From positions 1-53,678 of the forward strand of contig DDRH01000027.1 of the NCBI GenBank assembly GCA_002343075.1: a stretch of 53,678 nt of DNA, in the 5' to 3' direction. Within the stretch, counting starts at the first letter, position 1. Each line of letters begins with the position of its first letter. A program made the translations under genes and the position numbers. The notes beneath the pieces were generated by a model. It saw only the letters and a list, made by a program, of their open reading frames with translations. It had not been told where the DNA came from and did not search any database. Below, in pieces: positions 6,217 through 48,549 of this stretch. Origin of the DNA: Phycisphaerales bacterium UBA2421 (GTDB lineage Bacteria > Planctomycetota > Phycisphaerae > Tepidisphaerales > Tepidisphaeraceae).

Positions 6217-6424
6217 TTACCACGAAGCCCACGAAGGGCGCGAAGAACGGCTTGAACCACCAAGGCTCCAAGGCACGAAGATAAAAAGTTACGGACCGAT
6301 GATTCAATGCTGCAGGCGCATGTCCCCGTTTCAATTCAGTTTACATCTTCTTCGCGTTCTTCGCGTCCTTCGTGTTTCCCATCTCTCTGGGTTTCTTGGA
6401 GCCTTAGAGCCTTGGTGGTTAACA
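6217..6424. repeat. CACGAAG/CCAAGG inverted-repeat element, nuoF to thiS gap
   Basis: The gap contains two arm pairs. The CACGAAG arm at 6219-6250 matches the complement of 6347-6374 (18 of 19 bases over the best stretch). The CCAAGG arm at 6254-6280 matches the complement of 6395-6423, including 14 consecutive bases (AACCACCAAGGCTC). The order is arm 1, arm 2, unique centre, arm 1', arm 2', so the two pairings cross and cannot form one nested hairpin. It begins six bases past the nuoF stop and ends upstream of thiS. The related element at 4155-4453 shares arm sequence and the GTTAACCAC boundary next to a TAG stop. Confidence 0.85.
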
Positions 6425-7784: not shown

Positions 7785-7871
7785 TAAGGGATGAAGGATA
7801 AAGGATGAAAGCTGAACTTCGCGGGCGGTTCAATGTTCATCTCTTATCCTTCATCCTTCATCCTTTCTTTC
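7785..7871. repeat. GGATGAA-family inverted-repeat element upstream of nuoF
   Basis: The left arm (7785-7810, aagggatgaaggataaagg then atgaa) and right arm (7834-7871) are reverse complements made of degenerate 7-8 bp GGATGAA units, around a centre of about 25 bases. The left arm abuts the nuoF ATG, leaving no visible ribosome-binding site. The right arm supplies the last five codons and the TAA of the 74-residue ORF upstream, so the element seems to have entered that gap and redefined the ORF end. Confidence 0.85.
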
Positions 7872-8068
7872 ACTATCACTTCATCCGTCGTCGTCCGCCG
7901 AAGGATGACGTTTGGGTCGTCCGGAAGCGGTCGTTCCTCGGTTCTTTGCTCACGATATACCGTTTTCGGCCCTTCGACATCAGTTTTCAGGGCTTTTGTA
8001 ACATAACCCACCTGCCGGCCAAGCCAGCCTAGGATGCCTTTGCCGGGGCGGTCTATGGGCATGGGCAT
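7844..8068 (-). CDS. Small hypothetical protein between nuoE and nuoF
   Basis: I do not recognise this 74-residue ORF. It starts MPMPIDRPGKGILGWLGRQ and has a basic/hydrophobic N-terminal half, then a charged, proline-containing C-terminal half ending in VIVKER. Its codons are GC-rich like its neighbours, and it is co-directional with the phosphatase upstream and nuoF downstream. The last five residues (MKDEG) and the stop come from the GGATGAA repeat arm, so the original end was probably close to VIVKER. A role tied to complex I assembly is only a guess from position. It could also be a chance frame, since no Shine-Dalgarno sequence is obvious. Confidence 0.5.
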   Translation of the reverse strand: MPMPIDRPGKGILGWLGRQVGYVTKALKTDVEGPKTVYREQRTEERPLPDDPNVILRRTTTDEVIVKERMKDEG

Positions 8069-8071
8069 AAT

Positions 8072-8175
8072 CTAACCACAGAGGCGTGGAGAACACAGGG
8101 GGCGCGATGAAAATGCGAGCGCAACTCGACCCGAAGAAATCCAGCGAACTATCTTCTTTGTGCCTCTGTGGTTCA
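8072..8175. repeat. CACAGAG-family inverted-repeat element
   Basis: The left arm at 8073-8099 (TAACCACAGAGGCGTGGAG then AACACAGG) and the right arm at 8153-8175 (cttctttgtgcctctgtgg then ttca) share the 12-bp terminus AACCACAGAGGC in inverted orientation. The middle of about 55 bases is unique. The element exactly fills the space between the phosphatase stop codon (TGA at 8176-8178) and the start of the small ORF (8068). The AACCAC terminus is shared with the CACGAAG and CCAAGG elements nearby. Repeats of this wording occur in many unrelated bacterial genomes. Confidence 0.85.
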
Positions 8176-8757
8176 TCACTCTTTCGATTGTGCAAACGTC
8201 TCTCTCATCTGCCGCGATTGTGGGTCGTAAACGTCAATGAACCGCTGAACATCGCCGACGGTTCGCTGGCTGTGGCCGAAGGTAAGCAGCTTTTGCTTGG
8301 CCTGTTCTTTCGACCAGCCGAGGACCGACATCTGGTACGCCGCCACCATCATTCCCGTCCGCCGGACGCCCTGGGCACAGTGGACGACCACGGGCTGTTG
8401 GGCTGGGTCGGTCGCGATCGACAAGAACCGGGCGATCGCTAGGGCGTCTGGCCACCCGCCGAGGGGAATGGTAACTTTTTCGAGTCGAATACCGGGCCGA
8501 GCGTGGAGATGCGATTCTTCGGCGGCAAACTCCGGCTTGGCGGGGTCGGCGGCCTCGTCGTTATCAATGAGGGTAATGACCGTCCGCGGCCTCACTTTGC
8601 GAAGCATGTTGCGATACTCCCGCAAACCGCGGTTACCGTCGCGATACAGCTTGCCACGGTCGACCGTCGCGAGGTGATACGTCTCAAAAAACCGCCGCCA
8701 GATGGTGACCACCGCCACGACGACAACCAGAACAGCAGAGATAAGCCACGCGTTCAT
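8176..8757 (-). CDS. Membrane-anchored protein tyrosine phosphatase
   Basis: From the ATG at 8757 the product has 193 residues. It starts with a single transmembrane helix (MNAWLISAVLVVVVAVVTI) followed by RR, so the catalytic domain is probably cytosolic. The phosphatase signature VVVHCAQGVRRTG near residue 130 is a complete C-x5-R-T loop. GGWPD about 25 residues earlier gives the WPD-type acid loop. The fold most resembles the dual-specificity/DSP branch; phospho-substrates are unknown. It lies between nuoE and nuoF, which is not a usual place for a phosphatase, and is bordered on both sides by different inverted-repeat elements. The frame runs ten codons further upstream, but those are CACAGAT repeat sequence and no Shine-Dalgarno site is visible. 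Confidence 0.85.
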   Translation of the reverse strand: MNAWLISAVLVVVVAVVTIWRRFFETYHLATVDRGKLYRDGNRGLREYRNMLRKVRPRTVITLIDNDEAADPAKPEFAAEESHLHARPGIRLEKVTIPLGGWPDALAIARFLSIATDPAQQPVVVHCAQGVRRTGMMVAAYQMSVLGWSKEQAKQKLLTFGHSQRTVGDVQRFIDVYDPQSRQMRETFAQSKE

Positions 8758-8843
8758 ATCAGCCACAGATTGGGCACAGACGCTCACGGATGGACCTGCA
8801 AGCCAATTTCTATCAGATTCTATCTGTGTTCATCTGTGGCTAC
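8758..8843. repeat. CACAGAT-family inverted-repeat element
   Basis: The left arm at 8758-8793 reads atcAGCCACAGATtgggcac and continues with degenerate 9-10 bp units. The right arm at 8817-8842 is its complement (ATCTGTGtTcATCTGTGGCT). The 10-bp terminus AGCCACAGAT is perfect in inverted orientation. The element lies between the nuoE stop (12 bases away) and the phosphatase start, which it touches. It is similar in design, but not in sequence, to the CACAGAG element 600 bases away. Confidence 0.85.
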
Positions 8844-8853
8844 AAAACTCTTC

Positions 8854-9426
8854 TCAATGCCCCGACGCGAACTTGATCCCCGGATCCTTGTAATCATGCG
8901 GATCATCCGGCAGCTTGTTCAATTCGGCATCGAGCGCTTCCGGTGTGAGGTCTTCGTGCATCACGTCATTGATCAACGCCACAGGGGCATTGCCGCAGGC
9001 GCCGAGGCATTCAAGCTCGACGACGGTGAACCGCTGATCGGGCGTGGTTTCGCCGACTTCGATATTGTACTTCTTGCAGACATGGTCGGTCAGTTTGCGC
9101 GAGTCGCAGATTTCGCACGACAAGCTGCGGCAGACCTGGATGAGATACTTGCCCTTGGGCTTGAGCCAGTATTCTTCGTAAAAGGTAGCAGTATCGATGA
9201 CTTCGGCAGGCGCGATTTCGAGGAATTCGGCAATCTCCTGCATCGCCGCGGGGGGAATCCAGTTGTATTCGTGCTGTACCATGTGCAGCGCCGGTAAAAG
9301 GCAGGCGCGCTTGTTGGGGTAACGGGGAAAATAGGTGTCCGCGATCTGCTTCTTCAGTTCATCCGTCAGCAACGGCTGACTTTGCGCCACGCGGGTGTTT
9401 CTGCGGTCTTCTGCGATCCAGGGCAT
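8854..9426 (-). CDS. nuoE: NADH-quinone oxidoreductase subunit E
   Basis: NuoE carries the [2Fe-2S] cluster N1a beside the NADH site of complex I. From ATG 9426 (MPWIAEDRRNTRVAQSQPLL) the protein has 190 residues. The thioredoxin-like domain shows the helical LPALHMVQHEYNWIP part. The four cluster ligands come in two pairs: CRSLSC (C-x4-C, about residue 104) and CLGACGNAP (C-x3-C, about residue 145). The open frame continues 41 codons upstream, but that part reads through an ACGATGA repeat arm and is not protein. That arm ends five bases before the ATG, and no ribosome-binding site is visible. The gene sits in nuoD-E-F order, with extra genes inserted on both sides. Confidence 0.96.
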   Translation of the reverse strand: MPWIAEDRRNTRVAQSQPLLTDELKKQIADTYFPRYPNKRACLLPALHMVQHEYNWIPPAAMQEIAEFLEIAPAEVIDTATFYEEYWLKPKGKYLIQVCRSLSCEICDSRKLTDHVCKKYNIEVGETTPDQRFTVVELECLGACGNAPVALINDVMHEDLTPEALDAELNKLPDDPHDYKDPGIKFASGH

Positions 9427-9430
9427 ATTT

Positions 9431-9882
9431 TGAACGATGAAGTCGAAACGATGAACGATGAATGCACATCGATCGCTTTCCGACTGGTCATCCCTTTCGA
9501 TTTCTGTTCGCTGTTCGAGCCGAGGCAACGAAAATCGCCATGAGCTCATTCGCTTCTGTCAACAAAGGAACCAGCTTCGACTGCTCCACGATAGCCGAAT
9601 CAATCAGCAACTCAATCCCGTAGATCGTTTCATCCAGCTCTTGCGCCGAACACTCCAACTTGCTGACAAATTCGGCGGTCGACCTTGCACGATGCGCCTC
9701 TCGGTATTGGGCGCCGACGGAGGTCCCAGAGCGGACCAACGGACGTCCAATCACTTCGCCCGGCCCGGTGCGCGGCAGCACCGCACACAAACGAATAACC
9801 CGCAGAGCGAACTGGTTAGTCCTGTCTTTCAGGTCATTCATCGTTCATCGTTCCGACTTCATCGTTCCGACTTCATCGTTTC
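9431..9882. mobile_element. Inverted-repeat element carrying a four-helix-bundle ORF, inserted between nuoD and nuoE
   Basis: Inverted arms at 9432-9464 and 9835-9867 agree at 32 of 33 positions. They are made of 7-bp ACGATGA units with an AAGTCG spacer. The right arm has one additional unit reaching 9882, directly next to the nuoD stop codon (9884-9886); the left arm ends five bases from the nuoE ATG. Between the arms lies one intact ORF whose ATG is formed by the right arm itself. A related element without an ORF lies at 48455-48549. The structure resembles a small transposable unit, or a hairpin element with a passenger. No transposase is encoded and no target-site duplication is obvious. 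Confidence 0.75.
9488..9841 (-). CDS. Four-helix bundle protein (23S rRNA IVS-protein/Avd-like family)
   Basis: The 117-residue product starts MNDLKDRTNQFALRVIRLC and continues VGRPL-like (VIGRPLVRSGTSVGAQYRE), then ARSTAEFVSKLECSAQELDE and a leucine-rich last helix. This is the recognisable pattern of the PF05635/TIGR02436 four-helix bundle family. Members were first found in intervening sequences of 23S rRNA genes in Leptospira and Coxiella, and they share their fold with Avd, the accessory protein of diversity-generating retroelements. Their biochemical role is uncertain; some bind nucleic acid. The start codon lies inside the right arm of the surrounding inverted repeat, and the stop lies 24 bases from the left arm. 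No reverse transcriptase is in the window, so a retroelement role is not supported here. Confidence 0.88.
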   Translation of the reverse strand: MNDLKDRTNQFALRVIRLCAVLPRTGPGEVIGRPLVRSGTSVGAQYREAHRARSTAEFVSKLECSAQELDETIYGIELLIDSAIVEQSKLVPLLTEANELMAIFVASARTANRNRKG

Positions 9883-9883
9883 C

Positions 9884-11152
9884 CTACCGATCCAACTCCG
9901 CCGCAATCACATTCACGCTTCCCAGCACGGCCACCACATCGCTGAGCAGGTGGCCTTCAATCAGCTTTGGAAACACAGCGTAATTGATGTAAATGCAGGG
10001 CCTCGTGCGCACGCGCCACGGAGTGCTTTCGCCGGCGCTCACGATGTAATAGCCCAATTCGCCGTTGGCGCTTTCGATGCAGTTGTAGACCTCGCCAATC
10101 GGGCTTTCAAACCCGCGGTTGGTCATGATCATTTCAAAGTGATGGATCAGTCCTTCAATGCTTGAGTAAACCTGATCTTTCGGCGGAAGCACTTCCTTCC
10201 CTTCCGGGCTTACATTCACGGGGCCTTGCGGAATCTTGTCGATCAACTGCCGGATGATATGCATGCTCTGCTTCATCTCTTCCAGCCGGCAAAGATAGCG
10301 CGCATAACAATCGCCGGTCGTCATCACCGGCACCTTGAAATCGACTGCCGGCGCGCCCTGGCCGTCCCAGTTATCTTGAAAACAGAGATAAGGCTCGTCT
10401 TTACGGATGTCGCGACGAATGCCCGCGCTGCGCGCCATCGGCCCGGTGAGCGACCAACTCGCTGCTTCTTCGGCACTGATCACGCCGACCCCGCGCGTGC
10501 GCTCGATGAAGATGCGATTCTTGTTAAGCAGCGTCTCAACTTCCTGCAGCGCCTTGGGAAGTTGGTCGTCCACAAACTTCTTTACCATCGTCTTAAACGT
10601 GCCTTCGTCCGGCAGGTCCATGTTCAGCCCGCCGACGCGCGTCCAGCTTGTGTGATAGCGCTGACCTGACATGAACTCAACGATGTCATAGATGCGTTCT
10701 CGCTCGTTAAAGCCGAACAAAAACGCCGTAAAAGCGCCCAAATCCAGCCCTGCAGCACCGACACAAAGCAGGTGTGATTGAATTCGTCCCAGTTCTCCGG
10801 CGATCGTCCGCAGCACCTTGCACCGCGGGGTTAGCTCGATGCCCATCAGCTTTTCGACCGCCCCGTGCCACGCCAGCTCGTTGTAAATCGGCGCGCTGTA
10901 GTCCATCCGGTCGACAATGGTGACGTATTGGTTGTAGTTGAGATGTTCCCCAAGCTTCTCAAACCCGCTGTGCAGATACCCGATATGCGGGATGGCGCGC
11001 ACGACGCGCTCGCCGTCCAGTTCCAGGACGATGCGCAGCGTGGTGTGTGTCGCCGGATGCTGCGGGCCGAAGTTAAGCGTCCATCGATCACCGGCGGGTT
11101 TCTGGTCCTTCGACAAAAACTCCGGCGCGGCAGGGGCAAGCGTATAGGGCAT
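9884..11152 (-). CDS. nuoD: NADH-quinone oxidoreductase subunit D
   Basis: NuoD is the 49-kDa-type subunit that helps form the quinone pocket of complex I. The 422-residue protein has LNFGPQHPATHTTLRIVLEL near residue 28, followed by HIGYLHSGFEKLGE. NYNQYVTIVDRMDY, ELGRIQSHL, GRVG-type WTRVGGLNMDLP, GPMARSAGIRRD and a C-terminal GELGYYIVSAGESTPWRVR complete the subunit pattern. It ends AAELDR, like most family members. An AGGAAG ribosome-binding site lies seven bases before the ATG at 11152. It is the first gene of the row: no nuoA, B or C precedes it. Instead a divergent phage-like module begins 309 bases away, so this nuo cluster is split from the remaining complex I genes. Confidence 0.97.
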   Translation of the reverse strand: MPYTLAPAAPEFLSKDQKPAGDRWTLNFGPQHPATHTTLRIVLELDGERVVRAIPHIGYLHSGFEKLGEHLNYNQYVTIVDRMDYSAPIYNELAWHGAVEKLMGIELTPRCKVLRTIAGELGRIQSHLLCVGAAGLDLGAFTAFLFGFNERERIYDIVEFMSGQRYHTSWTRVGGLNMDLPDEGTFKTMVKKFVDDQLPKALQEVETLLNKNRIFIERTRGVGVISAEEAASWSLTGPMARSAGIRRDIRKDEPYLCFQDNWDGQGAPAVDFKVPVMTTGDCYARYLCRLEEMKQSMHIIRQLIDKIPQGPVNVSPEGKEVLPPKDQVYSSIEGLIHHFEMIMTNRGFESPIGEVYNCIESANGELGYYIVSAGESTPWRVRTRPCIYINYAVFPKLIEGHLLSDVVAVLGSVNVIAAELDR

Positions 11153-11461
11153 CTGATTTCTTCCTGAATCTCAAACCCCGCCGGGACATCGGCGGGCCAA
11201 CTTCAATCGACAGGCGATTATACGGAGCTTAGGAGATCGTTCCATCTTTCACAAACGATCGATCGCCCAGGCAACAGCGCGCTGCGCGCCGTGAGCGCCA
11301 ATAGCGCAACGCCGATCCGAACAAAATCCAAAAATTGTCTGCGAAAAGCCTGAGGTTTTCCCCAATTCTTTCCGCCAAGTTGCGCCACACGCCCAGCCGC
11401 GGCGCAGCGCCCCGGGATAGGGCGAGGCTGTGAAACACACGAACCGATTACGGAGCGAATC
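11153..11461. other. Divergent gap between nuoD and the phage portal gene
   Basis: These 309 bases must hold the promoter for the minus-strand nuo row and the leader of the plus-strand phage module. The ribosome-binding sites at both ends are visible: AGGAAG before nuoD, and CGGAG seven bases before the portal ATG. I see no recognisable gene. GC-rich inverted stretches such as gcgcgctgcgcgcc near 11278 are present. No -35/-10 pair is clear enough to call. Confidence 0.45.
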
Positions 11462-48454: not shown

Positions 48455-48549
48455 AAAAACGATGAATGATGAACGATGAATGATGAATTGAAGAGGACCG
48501 ATAGGGCAAGTATGCCGTTCATCGTTCCGACTTCATCGTTCATCGTTTA
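48455..48549. repeat. ACGATGA-family inverted-repeat element between groES and groEL
   Basis: The left arm at 48457-48489 and right arm at 48517-48549 are inverted copies of 7-bp ACGATGA/ATGATGA units, around a unique centre of about 27 bases. Bases 48517-48541 are identical to 9843-9867, the right arm of the element carrying the four-helix ORF, over 25 bases. The right arm overlaps the groES stop codon (TAA at 48547-48549). The groEL ribosome-binding site is preserved just beyond the left arm. No ORF lies inside. Confidence 0.88.

Follow-up and report, generated by a model that had tools for sequence, protein, structure and literature searches.

A four-helix-bundle gene between nuoD and nuoE

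The DNA analysed here, referred to as the window, is a stretch of 53,678 nucleotides from the planctomycete Phycisphaerales bacterium UBA2421 (contig DDRH01000027.1, here C27). Between its nuoD and nuoE genes lies a small gene enclosed by a pair of inverted repeat arms:

8854..9426, minus strand: nuoE, starting about 5 nt from the left arm (TIGR01958, 151.8 bits, cut-off 142.4)
9432..9464, plus strand: left arm, which is the downstream arm of the enclosed gene, made of heptads of the GAACGAT type
9488..9841, minus strand: gene for a 117-aa four-helix-bundle protein, TIGR02436 / PF05635 (23S rRNA intervening-sequence protein family)
9835..9867, minus strand: right arm, which is the upstream arm and holds the ATG of the gene, its heptad array running on to about 9881
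9884..11152, minus strand: nuoD, ending about 3 nt from the right heptad array (NF004739, 445 bits, cut-off 360)

A sequence-only reading of the window had described 33-bp inverted arms matching at 32 positions around an intact 117-residue frame of this family, and each element of that description proved accurate. The arms are 33 nt each, 97% complementary (32/33) and 370 nt apart, and the frame takes its start codon (ATG, 9841-9839) from inside the right arm. Both curated cut-offs are exceeded by the protein, with 67.4 bits against TIGR02436 (cut-off 24) and 49.4 bits against PF05635 (cut-off 33.8). As the right heptad array reaches about 9881, arms and ORF together occupy nearly the entire nuoD–nuoE gap. 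The arm motif, GAACGATGAA with at most one mismatch, occurs 21 times in the window against 4.65 expected, the maximum of 100 shuffles being 13. Folded as RNA, the element has a predicted energy of -199.6 kcal/mol, compared with -158.3 +/- 5.7 for 100 dinucleotide shuffles (z -7.3), and in the predicted fold the arms form the stem and the ORF the loop. An Rfam search of window positions 8000-11300 matched no family. Four other inverted pairs occur nearby: those at 6255-6420 and 7789-7863 look like short-period hairpins of the AAGGCTCC and GGATGAA types, and those at 8074-8173 and 8761-8841 have arms of just 12 and 10 nt.

The sequence-only reading suggested that the gene and its arms may form a minimal mobile system, for which conservation of the ORF at this position across a wide clade would be unexpected. 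In eight relatives from the same family with nuoD beside nuoE (L030-L033, L035, L036, L038, L039), no TIGR02436 match is listed between the two genes, an outcome that does not count against the mobile reading. Measured gaps are 44 bp (L030), 7 bp (L036) and 22 bp (L043), and in L042 the gap holds an ORF-less GAGTGCG hairpin, recognised by eye. Other small gene pairs, HicAB-like and DUF433/DUF5615-like (also named by eye), occupy the gap in L035 and L038. In relatives, the nuoD–nuoE gap is perhaps an insertion hot spot.

Inverted arms accompany TIGR02436 genes across bacteria

The TIGR02436 family was found in at least 150 of 294 genomes drawn from the window's phylum. Arms at its genes were scored by local alignment of the left flank with the reverse complement of the right flank (300 bp, threshold 12), and an outward control applied the identical test shifted about 700 bp away from the gene. 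Within the phylum, 70 of 82 loci are armed, compared with 1 of 77 outward controls and 4.1% of 6642 swapped flank pairs. Among named genomes, identified by record title and comprising Clostridia, Bacteroidota, Proteobacteria, Acidobacteria, Chloroflexi, CPR, one spirochaete, one archaeon and others, arms were found at 63 of the best 80 of at least 590 stretches (outward control, 1/71). Viral contigs gave 30 armed loci among 37 scored (38 fetched), against 1/27 in the control. For the window's own family the count is 25/29, in which the 'no arms' calls at L263, L279 and L285 may be coordinate errors.

Pooled over these four sets, which consist of best-scoring or motif-bearing matches rather than a random sample, 188 of 228 loci carry arms, a count that was checked at thresholds from 11 to 20. 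After loci had been grouped whenever their proteins were at least 60% identical or their flanks were shared, 65 of 77 clusters proved armed; the corresponding figures were 0/68 for outward controls and 0.8% for 385 shuffled flanks. The expectation that other TIGR02436 genes would lie between inverted short-period repeats is largely borne out. Further copies in multi-copy genomes have arms at 18/21 (16/19 plus both L312 genes), and annotated plasmid loci of cyanobacteria, Chloroflexota and Bacteroidota at 11 of 12 read among 49 listed, L409 and L410 being one locus, or nearly so, in two records. A search of 50,697 phage records with one query at E 1e-5 returned no match to the four-helix protein.

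Homologues without flanking repeats, which the sequence-only reading had named as evidence against itself, do exist: 40 of the 228 loci fall under the threshold, and about 8 of the 80 named-genome loci have, by eye, no short-period pair at all. Yet about 82% of the pool is armed, and the proposal stands. The arm finder may favour a fortuitous pair when the true one is weak, with L058 and L063 as possible cases.

Arms are short-period arrays with a common core

In 176 arm pairs scoring at least 13, the best period is 7 in 136, 8 in 29, 9 in 7 and 6 in 4, with a median of 4.7 units per arm for period 7 (either arm) and 4.55 for period 8. Arm sequence varies by locus, and what the arms have in common is an AG[GT] core, together with an inward-reading strand that is rich in G and poor in C. 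On this strand G exceeds C in 66/70 phylum, 59/63 named-genome and 28/30 viral pairs. Alignment of rotated heptads gives the core NNNAGKN, that is, NNN-A-G-[GT]-N, at 3.82 bits, whereas permuted heptads give 3.06 +/- 0.07 bits (maximum 3.21 of 20). Because the arms are inverted, a G-rich arm lies 5' on both strands, and G-richness therefore marks the polarity of the hairpin, not that of the gene.

Arms are also closely placed. Among the 70 phylum loci, the upstream arm stops a median of 22 nt ahead of the chosen start codon, the distance being 10-40 nt in 50 of them, and the downstream arm starts a median of about 6 nt past the stop codon. The unit consists of a G-rich array of four to five heptads, the ATG, the four-helix gene, its stop codon and the array inverted. 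In a small subgroup (L063, L121, L126), the arms have a 9-bp period with AAACCGTTT-like units and the protein has a longer tail; L323 resembles this subgroup by eye.

Selection for RNA pairing of the arms was considered and is not supported, as arm mismatches display no wobble asymmetry (126 vs 128). This lack of a G-U preference points away from selection on RNA pairing and towards recognition of the units in each arm.

Copies of the arms without the gene

Three TIGR02436 matches occur in the window's genome, and all three have short-period inverted arms. Besides the window copy (L003), the genome holds the following, the last being in the window itself:

L001: arms of 40 nt, 100% matched, made of GCGACGAA octads
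L002: arms of 33 nt, 94% matched, made of AATGATG-type heptads, its ORF containing a TAG
48457..48548 of the window, no strand assigned: ORF-less hairpin with heptads as in the arms of the window element

The arm sequence of L001 is unlike that of L002 and of the window copy. Hairpins with the window motif and no ORF, of which the one at 48457-48548 is an example, are present in this genome (the inverted-pair scan used rows without masked N runs), and the L001 octad is likewise found there both as hairpins and as single arrays. In G030, the other genome examined for such hairpins, the octad shared by the gene-bearing loci L049 and L090 occurs at no fewer than 30 further places, at least 14 of them matching both strands in hairpin-like fashion, among 40 scored of 97 candidates.

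Over 26 genomes of the window's family, counts are uneven, from 0 to 31 for the L001 octad (reversed-pattern control, 0-4 per genome) and from 0 to 134 for the window heptad (control, 0-1). Genomes with the four-helix gene themselves span 0 to 134 matches to the window heptad, and gene and motif count are not strictly linked. In the four genomes of the family that gave no TIGR02436 match (G002, G008, G316 and G320, two of them less than 80% complete), the L001 octad is absent and window heptads number 0-1. This is suggestive and no more, since several gene-bearing genomes also have none. Single octad arrays are seen in L443 (1330-1375, 2961-2998, 5427-5456) near the N-terminus of genes that look prepilin-like by eye. 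In genome G257, the downstream flank of L062 contains a repeated sequence about 110 bp long, of which G257 has at least 28 copies, 94-96% identical, among 40 scored of 164 candidates.

Arms do not in every case mark the two ends of a single insert. Single arrays exist, and in the DnaE gene of the window's own genome a second inverted GCGACGAA pair (L088, G000:C66 29910-29939 and 30226-30263) encloses native DnaE sequence. A simple insertion model fails to explain this second pair, and the arms may sit in two separate loops of one DnaE gene.

Such cases are what would be expected if short-period hairpins were an independent repeat family, spread by slippage and hairpin-templated copying, in whose loops the four-helix gene merely lands or survives. 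That ORF-less hairpins and arrays are common wherever examined, that arms are able to flank native DnaE sequence and that arrays occur singly all agree with it. It accounts poorly for an association of arms and gene that spans phyla with locus-specific motifs, and for arms that hug the gene as closely as in the 70 phylum loci. Moreover, the arm motif follows protein relatedness despite unrelated flanks. In 53 pairs whose proteins are at least 65% identical and whose flanks are dissimilar, the arms have a similarity of 0.458, compared with 0.201 +/- 0.015 after permutation among loci, although these pairs come from 52 loci, are not independent, include many from one viral-contig group, and were permuted irrespective of relatedness. 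A hitchhiking gene is accordingly considered quite improbable.

Movement of arms and gene as one unit

The clearest case of movement is the pair L049/L090 within genome G030. The two proteins are 94% identical, both limits of the nucleotide homology fall inside the arm arrays, and the surroundings are unrelated, so that one unit occupies unrelated sites and homology stops at its edges, as for a mobile element. Less closely related pairs have a similar appearance: L062/L093, from two genomes of one genus (proteins 86% identical), and the window copy with L002 in the same genome (73%) each combine unrelated flanks with related arms. At orthologous sites, the arm motif may differ while both arms are still matched to each other (L001/L280 vs L224; L143 vs L204). 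No pair of empty and filled sites close enough to reveal a target duplication or exact junctions was found, and DNA searches around L062 and L090 gave no clean empty site, the flanks being rearranged or having no relative for comparison.

The unit recurs across bacteria, has moved as arms plus ORF in one clear case, and has ORF-less counterparts with the same motif. These observations sustain the sequence-only proposal that element and gene form a mobile system between operon genes. That interpretation is largely supported, and it generalises beyond the window. The element is probably an autonomous mobile hairpin, of which the window locus is one copy.

Residence between and inside genes

Where both neighbours are co-directional, the four-helix gene is co-oriented with them in 84 cases and opposed in 19 (160 loci, both neighbours called from open frames). 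Some elements reside inside genes. Fourteen of 176 armed loci lie within a long open frame that spans both arms and the ORF, 13 of them sense and 1 antisense. In all 13 sense loci, the host codons run one base ahead of the four-helix codons. Their host frames contain 0 stops against 3.19 expected, a result made partly circular by the choice of loci with an open frame. What is not circular is the consistency of phase, with 13/13 in one and the same of the two free sense frames, and the presence of just one antisense locus. A looser test gave 14 sense loci, all in one frame, vs 3 antisense, and six other armed loci are stop-free in that host phase and have no long host frame.

Pfam was applied to 10 of the 13 host frames and identified DnaE in five, an N6_N4 methylase in three, an Eco57I methylase in one and a GNAT domain in one, the last below the cut-off, leaving nine of ten above it. 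In all five DnaE hosts, the palm domain stops right before the element and the finger domain begins right after it; the insert, if translated, would amount to about 150-200 aa. Only the DnaE hosts have domains on both sides; the methylase hosts have a domain on one side. Two host frames gave no NCBIfam match: that of L118 may be spurious, but the text surrounding L057 resembles that of L051 and L059. In-frame residence like that of Rickettsia palindromic elements (RPEs) is seen in relatives of the window copy, and not in the window copy itself.

The DnaE loop was compared over 18 stretches from 17 genomes of the window's family. Four contain ORF-bearing elements (with two octad motifs), four contain ORF-less inserts and ten are short, and the DnaE frame is open in all 18. 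The ORF-less inserts are:

G010: heptad hairpin
G003: CACAGAGA hairpin
G324: one-armed array
G321: another palindrome

A carbamoyl-phosphate synthase large-subunit gene, partly masked, also carries an in-frame octad hairpin without an ORF, at L442 1682-1772. On plasmids, four-helix genes were seen among DISARM, CRISPR, methylase-helicase and DUF1156-Swt1 genes (L410, L411, L412, L413, L415, L419), and in one case (L414) with two nrd genes on either side, on the opposite strand. Placement of TIGR02436 loci in rRNA genes was considered as well. The 23S/16S probe strings, which make a weak test, were absent from the TIGR02436 loci examined with them, their sole match being L336, a stretch of the window's own genome without TIGR02436.

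The four-helix gene itself is under purifying selection. Of 16 pairs, one was not computable owing to a stop and four had saturated dS; in the 11 with a finite ratio, dN/dS is 0.03-0.22, with 0.069 for L049/L090, the ratios of L062/L093 and L222/L228 being rough because synonymous divergence exceeds 2.

Purifying selection would also be expected of a host-useful gene for an RNA-binding or regulatory protein, whose arm hairpin is cut by RNase III to free a small mRNA from the operon transcript and which moves by ordinary recombination alone. Several observations suit such a gene. It is mostly co-oriented with its neighbours (84 vs 19), it lies in the loop of a stable predicted stem, and L175, L185, L202, L214 and L216 (Flavobacterium and a FLAVO1 bin) share one orthologous copy whose flanks are alike, the neighbours in L175 being gmk and nadD. 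RNase III is reported to cut such a stem in vitro in the Coxiella 23S intervening sequence (IVS), an element of 428-444 nt whose stem is 28 bp long and whose loop carries the S23 ORF (PMC4990558). However, the four-helix gene is multi-copy and limited to part of the genomes drawn from the phylum (at least 150/294), and it has moved within a genome together with its arms, as in L049/L090. A resident host gene also leaves the shared motif of ORF-less hairpins and the lack of G-U bias among arm mismatches without an explanation, and cutting at the in-frame copies in DnaE or methyltransferases would destroy the host mRNA. It is thus an unlikely account of these loci.

Relation to known systems

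The closest known relatives of the window element are 23S rRNA IVSs with an S23/IVP ORF, with which it shares the protein family, terminal inverted repeats that can pair and an ORF in the loop. The difference lies in location: the IVS sits in the 23S rRNA gene, and the window element between nuoD and nuoE. More generally, stand-alone TIGR02436 elements differ from IVSs in occupying operon gaps, intergenic sites and protein genes, often in many copies per genome; their arms are heptad arrays. The 23S rRNA IVS is best read as the known special case of such a hairpin element. Function and origin of IVSs are called unclear in PMC4990558, which credits the idea of an ORF for mobility to Ralph and McClelland 1993. 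IVP genes are also reported inside rRNA insertions of CPR bacteria (PMC11270868) and in cas loci, where 18 were counted and noted as another interesting function (PMC3936711), and the four-helix family is named in a legend of PMC10910872.

Other repeats resemble parts of the system. RPEs of Rickettsia and other in-frame MITEs are palindromic and lie in frame in protein genes (PMC10969869), as do some four-helix elements. However, RPEs are about 150 bp and at that size would be too short for a four-helix gene, whereas four-helix elements have an ORF-bearing form and short-period arrays as arms. In Geobacter metallireducens, multicopy sequences with four tandem octanucleotide repeats, paired on opposite strands at variable distance, and others with four tandem heptanucleotide repeats, within and between genes, have been described (PMC2700814). 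The likeness is one of description; they are termed 'predicted global regulator binding sites' or regulatory RNAs, and 'four helix' does not appear in the available text of that paper. TAACTGA heptamers of Beggiatoaceae and cyanobacteria are also seven-base and mostly intergenic, but are direct repeats, one of them inverted, and the available text contains neither 'four helix' nor 'S23' (PMC4679880). Literature searches, with most subscription journals outside their coverage, found nothing that links stand-alone TIGR02436 genes to inverted heptad arms. Compared with IVS-type elements, what is new is a far wider occurrence and an arm code for which no description was found.

In REP/RAYT systems (REPINs), inverted repeat copies lie on both sides of a gene and further copies are scattered without it, as in four-helix elements. 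However, RAYT is a Y1 transposase, the window protein matches PF05635 only, and four-helix arms are tandem arrays.

The Avd protein of diversity-generating retroelements (DGRs) offers a further parallel, its fold being related to PF05635 by a published comparison (4DWL vs 2GSC; PMC10053308); a profile search of the PDB at E 0.01 did not retrieve Avd. DGR homing needs a hairpin or cruciform at the target, which acts through its structure and not its stem sequence (PMC3240598). An RT-dependent, DGR-like retroelement, in which the Avd-like protein works with a reverse transcriptase in trans, might therefore be envisaged, and an RVT_1 match is present in 10 of 16 genomes tested, including the window's own and that with the clearest case of movement, G030. 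In DGRs, however, the reverse transcriptase lies beside Avd, whereas the RVT_1 matches of the window's genome are on contigs C17 and C7 and not on C27. Genome G031, 97% complete and with 14 four-helix matches, has no RVT_1 match, nor do G193, G240 and G312 (78, 83 and 82% complete). Judged by gene presence in G031, a reverse transcriptase is not required, and a retroelement of this kind is very improbable. Telomere-like or RT-templated repeat addition, suggested by the look of the arrays, was set low in view of these four gene-bearing genomes, though ten of the 16 have a match.

A model for the hairpin element

Taken as an autonomous hairpin mobile element, the unit may operate through its own protein. 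Two solved relatives of the four-helix protein, 2gsc and 2rld, contain five chains each, and the title of a 2006 paper by Lin et al. refers to five four-helix bundles. The protein could accordingly assemble as a pentamer that binds the arms, each subunit touching one AG[GT]-containing unit of single-stranded RNA, single-stranded DNA or a cruciform. By marking or protecting the hairpin, it would allow the hairpin to be copied into new sites, the DNA-moving enzyme probably being supplied by the host. Arms at orthologous sites can change in sequence yet stay matched, and surviving insertions would be the harmless ones: operon gaps, in-frame protein loops and, as the sites known before, 23S rRNA hairpins. 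In this model the four-helix protein would bind the arms and may itself move or maintain the element. Results on the Coxiella 23S IVS speak against a role for the protein, since they suggest that S23 is not made in vivo (PMC4990558).

A wider generalisation can be offered tentatively, as a possibility rather than an expectation. TIGR02436 elements might be bacteria-wide minimal mobile elements with a non-enzymatic, Avd-like pentamer, whose ends are recognised not by a fixed sequence but by the hairpin and by the register of the repeats, with about five AG[GT] units spaced at 7 nt and one unit for each subunit. Host replication and repair enzymes would do the copying, and 23S rRNA IVSs, the ORF-less heptad hairpins of many phyla and in-frame palindromic protein inserts would be forms of one system. 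Recognition by register and hairpin, with no fixed sequence, would leave each lineage free to drift to a new arm sequence.

Implications

No agent of mobility is known, as far as we are aware, for short palindromic repeats inserted in frame into genes. Nor has a clear function emerged for the S23/IVP family since 23S IVSs were studied in the early 1990s. If the four-helix protein serves hairpins, the function of S23/IVP proteins and the mobility of palindromes would merge into one testable system. Four-helix genes found among cas, DISARM and restriction genes may then be passengers, not parts of the defence. Finally, insertion in frame into DnaE and methyltransferases would give mobile DNA a way to lengthen proteins.
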